Positions 4,730-5,362 of a stretch of DNA of 55,378 nt are shown here, one piece after another. The notes under the pieces are model-generated. The model did no database searches. It was given only the letters and a program-made list of their open reading frames with translations, and was not told the origin of the DNA. Location of the stretch: contig JAJUFS010000004.1 of assembly GCA_029263725.1 (NCBI GenBank), positions 1 through 55,378 on the forward strand. The letters run 5' to 3'. Numbering within the stretch: position 1 is the first letter of the stretch; every line of letters begins with the position of its first letter. Made by a program: the position numbers and the translations under genes. This stretch comes from Gammaproteobacteria bacterium (GTDB lineage Bacteria > Pseudomonadota > Gammaproteobacteria > Natronospirales > JAJUFS01).

Positions 4730-4832
4730 GCTCGTCCCCTCTCTCTTGCCCGGCGTGTCGGGGGCCGCCCGGGCTACCGCGGAATGGCGCGTTTGCGCCG
4801 ACTCAAAAACTGGCTGCGCCAGATGTAGTAGC

Positions 4833-4851
4833 TGGCTGGGGCGCCAGGATT
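4833..4851 (-). repeat. 19-base copy of the tRNA-Gln 3' end
   Basis: The 19 bases here are identical to 4967-4985, the 3' end of the intact tRNA-Gln gene including CCA, and break off inside the T-loop. What follows (ATTCGGCGCTTCGCGCCTCACCC) resembles the sequence that breaks the other damaged copy at 5076. This is either an attachment-site-like duplication or the remains of a tRNA copy. Confidence 0.8.
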
Positions 4852-4966
4852 ATTCGGCGCTTCGCGCCTCACCCTCCGGGCCCGCGCTGCGCGCGGTTAT
4901 CCTGGCTTGCGCAACACCTCGCGGTGTCGCGCGTATTGTGTTGCGGCTTCGCCGCCCCCTGAAACT

Positions 4967-5041
4967 TGGCTGGGGCGCCAGGATTCGAACCTGGGAATGG
5001 CGGGATCAAAACCCGCTGCCTTACCGCTTGGCTACGCCCCA
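4967..5041 (-). tRNA. tRNA-Gln (anticodon UUG)
   Basis: The minus-strand sequence folds as a complete cloverleaf of 75 bases with encoded CCA. The acceptor stem is TGGGGCG/CGCCCCA, the anticodon stem is GCGGG/CCCGC around the loop TTTTGAT (anticodon TTG), and the T arm is CCAGG-TTCGAAT-CCTGG. It sits upstream of prs on the same strand, as in related genomes. It is the only intact copy of three tRNA-Gln-like sequences here. Confidence 0.95.
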
Positions 5042-5063
5042 AGAAATCTGTCATCAACGTCAC

Positions 5064-5237
5064 GGGCGCCAGGATGATTCGCGGCTTCGCCGCTCACCCA
5101 CTCGCCCTTCGGGCTCGGGGCCCGCTACGCTTCGCTCCGCGGTTCTTCGCGCGACTGCGTCGCGCTCGTCGAACCCGGGAATGGCGCCCGGCAGAGAAAA
5201 ATGAAAACCCGCTGCCTTACCGCCTGGCTACGCCCCA
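5064..5237 (-). pseudogene. Broken tRNA-Gln copy with two insertions
   Basis: Pieces matching tRNA-Gln occur in order: GGGCGCCAGGAT at 5064-5075, TCGAACCCGGGAATGGCG at 5169-5186, and AAAACCCGCTGCCTTACCGC...CGCCCCA at 5204-5237. About 93 bases of hairpin-rich sequence split the T-loop, and roughly 13 extra bases disturb the anticodon arm. It cannot fold as a working tRNA. The T-loop break is at the same place as in the 19-base partial copy at 4833, and the inserted sequences begin alike. Confidence 0.8.
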
Positions 5238-5333
5238 GGAAATCTTCTTCGATCCGCGTCGCAGGTCGCCGCGCGTTTTGACGCTTCGCAAACAGCCGCG
5301 GCCGGGTTGCCCCCCGCCGCAAGAAAGCCCGGT

Positions 5334-5362
5334 ATTTTCCCGTTACGACAATAGGGTGTCAA
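5334..5362 (-). promoter_or_regulatory. Candidate promoter for the tRNA-Gln/prs transcript
   Basis: On the minus strand TTGACA (5357-5362) and GAAAAT (5334-5339) are separated by 17 bases, a good match to a sigma-70 promoter. TTGACA overlaps the lolB stop codon. The promoter is about 290 bases upstream of the intact tRNA, so a transcript would run through the damaged copy first. The rest of 5042-5358 holds no gene that I can see. Confidence 0.45.

Follow-up and report, generated by a model that had tools for sequence, protein, structure and literature searches.

PATEs, which derive from IS200/IS605, and REP/RAYT repeats are short, hairpin-bearing and non-coding elements that are non-autonomous. 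Phages and genomic islands use the T-loops of tRNA genes as attB, and a core in the T-loop together with a restored 3’ end is the classical integration geometry of integrative elements. The T1-T2 terminator region of the E. coli rrn operons is familiar from a different context, being carried in many cloning vectors. A further described system is RtT RNA (Rfam RF00391), encoded by rttR in the tyrT operon of E. coli; 34 of 185 genomes that represent the class contain it. In E. coli, RtT RNA is reported to be set free from the transcript of tyrT (Bosl and Kersten 1991, cited in PMC4986893), and RtT transcripts have been reported in Actinobacillus (PMC4986893) and in Thioalkalivibrio (PMC8092127).

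The stretch of DNA analysed here (the window, 55,378 nt) contains a single tRNA gene according to ARAGORN, an intact tRNA-Gln(UUG) at 4967-5041 on the minus strand (Rfam tRNA model, 65.1 bits). Its neighbours, identified from ORFs and Pfam matches around the locus, are housekeeping genes only: prs, rplY, pth, ychF, lolB, hemA and prfA. As a preliminary description of the locus had stated, damaged copies of the tRNA flank the intact gene and are broken at the same T-loop site. On the downstream side, positions 4833-4851 are identical (19/19) to the last 19 bases of tRNA-Gln and lie 115 nt downstream of it; this exact copy comprises 18 bases at 4833-4850 (minus), or 19 with the A at 4851, and the chance expectation for a 19-base copy is about 4e-7 (2 x 55378 / 4^19). 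On the upstream side, a split copy starts at 5237 (TGGGGCGTAGCCAGGCGG...). Its degenerate 5’ three-quarters (5169-5237, minus, aligned with the intact tRNA) end in GGTTCGA at 5169, after which come a 93-nt insert within the T-loop (5168-5076) and ATCCTGGCGCCC (5075-5064, minus). The latter represents the 3’ side of the T-stem plus the acceptor, maps to tRNA positions 58-69 and equals the first 12 bases of the tRNA tail. Zero tRNA bases are lost at this junction. The split copy is full-length but degenerate, with an extra stretch within its anticodon arm, and so cannot function as a tRNA. The two copies are broken at the same point, GGTTCGA|ATCC, which separates T-loop positions 58 and 59. The two inserts had also been said to begin alike; what they share is the right-hand end of a common cassette (hairpin 4 plus GAATA or GAATC), which is really the 3’ end of each insert in the direction of the tRNA, the gene and both copies being on the minus strand.

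Some features of the surroundings are recorded here as separate observations. Between the intact tRNA and the downstream cassette, two more hairpins (GGCGGCGAAGCCGC and ACACCGCGAGGTGT) are seen at 4906-4966 (minus); the parts are ordered here unlike those of other units. In most relatives, prs lies within a few hundred bases after the tRNA, and in relatives such as G017 and G139 an apparent ispE end is located directly upstream of tRNA-Gln and prs. In the window (4730-5360), the split tRNA copy comes after lolB and ispE is missing between the two, and TIGR00154 has no match for ispE in this genome, which is 83% complete.

The downstream unit (4833-4937, minus) matches RF00391 over the full-length model (1-130) with 29.4 bits and an E value of 0.0022 (9.9e-4 genome-wide), below the gathering score of 45, while the upstream split copy has no match with the Rfam model. 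A sister unit at tRNA-Ser(UGA) of the same genome reaches 46.0 bits and passes the cut-off. Two cassette models were employed. R1 was built from 34 RtT cassettes with no window sequence among them; it contains GGTTCGA and is poor in structure (3 pairs). R2 is a structural, cassette-only model that supplements R1 and was untrained on the downstream window copy. When the whole window is searched with R1, the upstream copy ranks best (5076-5175, GGTTCGA included, 32.8 bits, E 6.8e-6) and the downstream copy second (4851-4898, 30.1 bits, E 2.7e-5), the next match having an E value of 0.13. R2 finds the downstream cassette with 34.6 bits (E 2.4e-6); it does not find the upstream one (5076-5168, minus), which carries an internal duplication near hairpin 3 and is found by R1. 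The downstream cassette (4851-4905, minus, R1 and R2 matches) has its hairpin 1 lost or replaced and is without GGTTCGA. The conserved series of hairpins is detected by R1 and R2, short of hairpin 1 in the downstream copy, and both units end, as RtT does, in a copy of the neighbouring tRNA 3’ end (19/19 bases downstream, a 12-base tail upstream). Judged by sequence, both window inserts are the same four-hairpin cassette and belong with RtT at scores under the curated cut-off, because the RF00391 match is full-length, R1 ranks the two copies first and second, and rttR itself matches R1.

The same genome, with about 30 tRNAs at 83% completeness, contains two more such units, at tRNA-Ser(UGA) and tRNA-Ser(GGA), each with the hairpin series and, after it, a repeat of its own tRNA’s 3’ end. 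BLAST of the region against its own genome returned only these two copies, plus near-chance matches. Separately, tRNA-fMet and tRNA-Ala(CGC) (G000:C29 and G000:C131; L075 and L089) are followed by downstream 3’-end copies that include the T-loop and have no hairpin cassette.

In E. coli K-12, rttR carries the cassette (R1 E about 1e-11, with an R2 match too), tandem 178-bp units are located downstream of tRNA-Tyr, and E. coli genomes with a match have 1 to 9 RtT places each. The T1-T2 spacer of K-12 rrnB is also the cassette (L325:340-412, R2 75.2 bits, E 1.4e-16), and after it stands AACTGCCAGGCAT, which repeats the 3’ end of 5S. Further rrn T1-T2 cassettes are at L326:420-492 and L331:769-841. 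Of the K-12 operons compared (rrnA, rrnB, rrnD, rrnE, rrnG and rrnH), rrnA, rrnB and rrnD have the same 168-bp unit, composed of T1, the cassette and the 5S-tail copy. rrnE and rrnH are without it, and in rrnG the 5S gene is directly followed by the flank that comes after the tail in rrnA, with 75/79 identical bases. Of 5426 E. coli genomes, 3922 have the rrn cassette, and among the three matches listed none has an annotated feature over it. In E. coli, the cassette could have spread among the rrn operons by gene conversion.

In most copies, the cassette measures about 70-90 bp and consists of four hairpins joined by short linkers, with GAAC after hairpin 1, a conserved GCCCG-A-GGGC that forms hairpin 3, and an end that reads GARTA, GARTC or GAGCA. 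Its fold was assessed in a cassette-only alignment of 21 cassettes, A3, three rows of which come from unusual sites (a D-loop, an anticodon loop and a non-tRNA site). Pairing is seen in 96.5% of cells and double changes in 15 of the 21 pairs; none of 500 shuffles attains these figures, and pairing falls to 32-43% when the partner is slid by 1-3 columns. Because of this pairing, the two-sided changes and both controls, we conclude that the fold is conserved, with compensatory changes. These data also bear on whether the flanking copies are just random pseudogene debris whose hairpins look alike by GC-rich coincidence. The region is indeed GC-rich and has many short palindromes, but the E values that independent models return are 1e-5 to 1e-6 for the window and reach 1e-16 for E. 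coli rrnB, and the covariation beats all shuffles; on these grounds, chance similarity and simple pseudogene debris were rejected and we give them next to no credence. As a separate observation, two hairpin loops of many cassettes contain GGA (CCGGGAG and CAGGGATG, hairpins 1 and 4 of A3, as in L153, L202 and L274), which we take to resemble the CsrA/RsmA binding motif; neither the window copies nor those of rttR have it. In the cassettes of L198, L218, L234 and L042, hairpin 1 harbours a second hairpin element (GGGTTTGYCAGGATGGCAAACCC...GAGGCAGGGATAGCCGAG).

The usual downstream unit is larger than the cassette. It is non-coding, about 150-230 bp in measured cases, and is ordered as follows: an RNA tail, mostly a terminator-like hairpin, a spacer often containing an antisense T-arm, GGTTCGA, the cassette, and again a tail. 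GGTTCGA immediately precedes the cassette in nearly all RtT copies. Such a unit is probably co-transcribed with the tRNA and trimmed off, by analogy with what is reported for E. coli rtT RNA.

Searches of this genome and of its relatives place the insert in other tRNA genes at the same T-loop point, with tails of Ser, Gln, Arg, Tyr, Glu, Val and other tRNAs. Nearly all copies are flanked by GA on the left and A on the right, and at sense T-loop sites the tRNA resumes at the very next base after the cassette. The preliminary proposal of a hairpin mini-element that enters tRNA T-loops is thus largely borne out, a homologous cassette being found at that point in many genomes; other sites are used as well. 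Exact junctions between GA and A are found in the anticodon loops of tRNA-Ser(UGA) (L222, L214) and tRNA-Ser(CGA) (L204), and in 5S rRNA (L240). GA and A likewise flank it in the antisense T-loops of tRNA-Val (L230), tRNA-Phe (L217) and tRNA-Asn (L226, left side only), at a neighbouring antisense GA^A in tRNA-Phe (L216), and in tmRNA (L117, tail side). In the D-loops of tRNA-Ser (L200, L202), the first bases to the right of the cassette show a single difference from the intact gene. Each of these sites outside the sense T-loop for which the contig is full has an intact gene next to the interrupted partial copy. In scanned loci of the anticodon-loop, 5S rRNA, antisense T-loop and dispersed types, the Rfam RtT model does not report the cassette.

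For most copies, the inserts neither lack homologues nor lie at random away from tRNA genes: 71 of the 85 cassette sites examined are within 500 nt of a tRNA or tmRNA, a figure that leans toward T-loops because the loci were picked by model match and R1 contains GGTTCGA. R2 also finds dispersed copies in some genomes. The tail of the gene’s own 3’ end (at least 14/18 bases) follows the cassette at 52/85 sites against 8/1073 random placements; the 85 sites were chosen from model matches, so that the figures describe the family and are not an unbiased census. Most units are downstream of the RNA gene. Upstream split copies recur: in L144, three split tRNA-Gln stand in tandem ahead of the intact gene, L133/L166 has one, and L152 has a split tRNA-Ser.

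The same junctions allow a judgement on attachment-site scars, left by a phage or other integrative element whose tyrosine recombinase used the tRNA-Gln T-loop; an att-like integrase scar had also been suggested in the preliminary description. Only the geometry speaks for it: a T-loop core, a new RNA 3’ end supplied and the old tail left behind, as in classical integration. Against it, ORFs and Pfam matches around the locus reveal no integrase or site-specific recombinase gene in or beside the unit, and a single cassette with conserved hairpins, which occurs in many different RNA genes and in both orientations within the T-loop, is unlike the att remnants of unrelated elements. An integrase scar was rejected for the missing adjoining integrase and for the range of RNA genes and the two strands targeted, and we consider it very improbable.

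Sites with and without the unit can be compared directly in one genus of a related family, where G017 has a unit after tRNA-Gln and G010 has none. The DNA after the tail copy in G017 and the DNA after the tRNA in G010 are identical at 95/108 positions, in a stretch that includes the start of prs. Together with the rrn operons of E. coli, this pair shows the unit to be an exact addition to, or removal from, the RNA gene. The direction, gain or loss, is not proven by these comparisons, because the unit lies between two tails and would be deleted if these recombined; where it is absent, such a loss rather than an ancestral empty site could accordingly be what is seen.

R2 matches were obtained in 32 of 56 relatives and in 37 of 200 genomes sampled over the phylum. 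Dispersed cassettes are found in G005 (L274-L284), inside CGACAA microsatellite-like tracts at unrelated loci, and in G046 (L294-L309), which has 16 copies, most within a larger repeat and with the cassette between AGGA and ACCG. In both genomes, the flanks are common to the copies; the copies show growth in copy number, and it may be the larger repeat, not the cassette, that moved. Y1 transposase (PF01797) has no match in the genome of the window (83% complete). It is present in 12 of 14 relatives, where its distribution is not that of the cassette: cassettes occur in G006 in the absence of Y1, and G004 and G008 have Y1 with no cassettes found.

From what is directly observed, namely a shared cassette with a conserved fold, exact junctions, tails that match the neighbouring gene, and sites with and without the unit, we infer movement of the cassette, an order of events and an enzyme acting on it. 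A unit would comprise the 3’ tail of an RNA (in many cases including a terminator), a short spacer, the ~8 bases that immediately precede the break, and the cassette. Being non-autonomous, it would enter a stable-RNA gene at GA^A and keep the RNA intact by providing the gene with a new 3’ end; in the downstream type, the old tail remains beyond the cassette. The upstream type would mirror this, with a duplicate of the gene’s 5’ part ahead of the cassette, and here too the gene survives. We think it fairly probable that both flanking copies of tRNA-Gln are RtT-type units with this behaviour, i.e. non-autonomous insertion at GA^A in stable-RNA genes with restoration of the gene 3’ end.

An explanation without any mobility has also to be weighed. 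RtT could be an old structured trailer RNA of stable-RNA operons, and split copies and arrays could have arisen by unequal recombination between the GGTTCGA of T-loops, the GGTTCGA inside RtT and the repeated tails. The often tandem arrays, the near-constant GGTTCGA just before the cassette in RtT copies and the 1 to 9 RtT places per matching E. coli genome all fit this explanation, and recombination between a tRNA and RtT at GGTTCGA would yield the upstream split copy of the window. What it leaves unexplained are the exact breakpoints within anticodon loops, D-loops, antisense T-loops and the 5S gene, all without GGTTCGA, as well as the dispersed copies. We regard it as unlikely, while granting it real weight. 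The insertion of a mobile cassette, which we prefer, might extend further: RtT RNA and the rrn T1-T2 spacer could be one unrecognised family of tiny structured non-autonomous mobile cassettes, whose insertion point throughout Pseudomonadota would be GA^A within stable-RNA genes and which would restore the RNA 3’ end and add a terminator, parts of the E. coli ribosomal terminators then being insertion relics. This wider proposal is tentative, and we hold it at somewhat under even chances.

RtT has been known since 1991 and, to our knowledge, hardly any explanation has been given for the piece of tRNA that it carries. If the cassette inserts, this piece would be the repair of its own target, and many damaged tRNA copies beside intact genes would be explained. 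As the T1-T2 spacer of rrnA, rrnB and rrnD is the cassette, the question can be tested in a laboratory strain, and our covariance model is offered for finding further cassettes. RtT RNA itself is already known. Our searches of the open-access literature turned up no account that treats RtT as a portable cassette, gives the T-loop insertion point or notes the identity with the rrn T1-T2 spacer.

How, then, does the cassette compare with the systems described above? With integrative elements of tRNA T-loops, it shares the T-loop breakpoint and the restored tRNA 3’ end; it differs in that the unit is only about 150-230 bp long and non-coding, that no integrase was found, and that other loops and both strands are used. 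Like PATEs and REP/RAYT repeats, the cassette is short, hairpin-bearing and non-coding, and it appears to insert at a short sequence (GA^A) with no clear target duplication, but no end-sequence or transposase match links it to these elements, and the occurrence of Y1 does not follow that of the cassette. The E. coli rrnB T1-T2 region has the same cassette as its spacer, followed by a copy of the 5S 3’ end, the target there being 5S rRNA and here a tRNA. A last comparison is with RtT RNA/rttR of the E. coli tyrT operon, where GGTTCGA likewise stands before the cassette and a copy of the host tRNA 3’ end after it; the window differs in that its copy scores below the Rfam cut-off and in that its upstream copy is a whole split tRNA.
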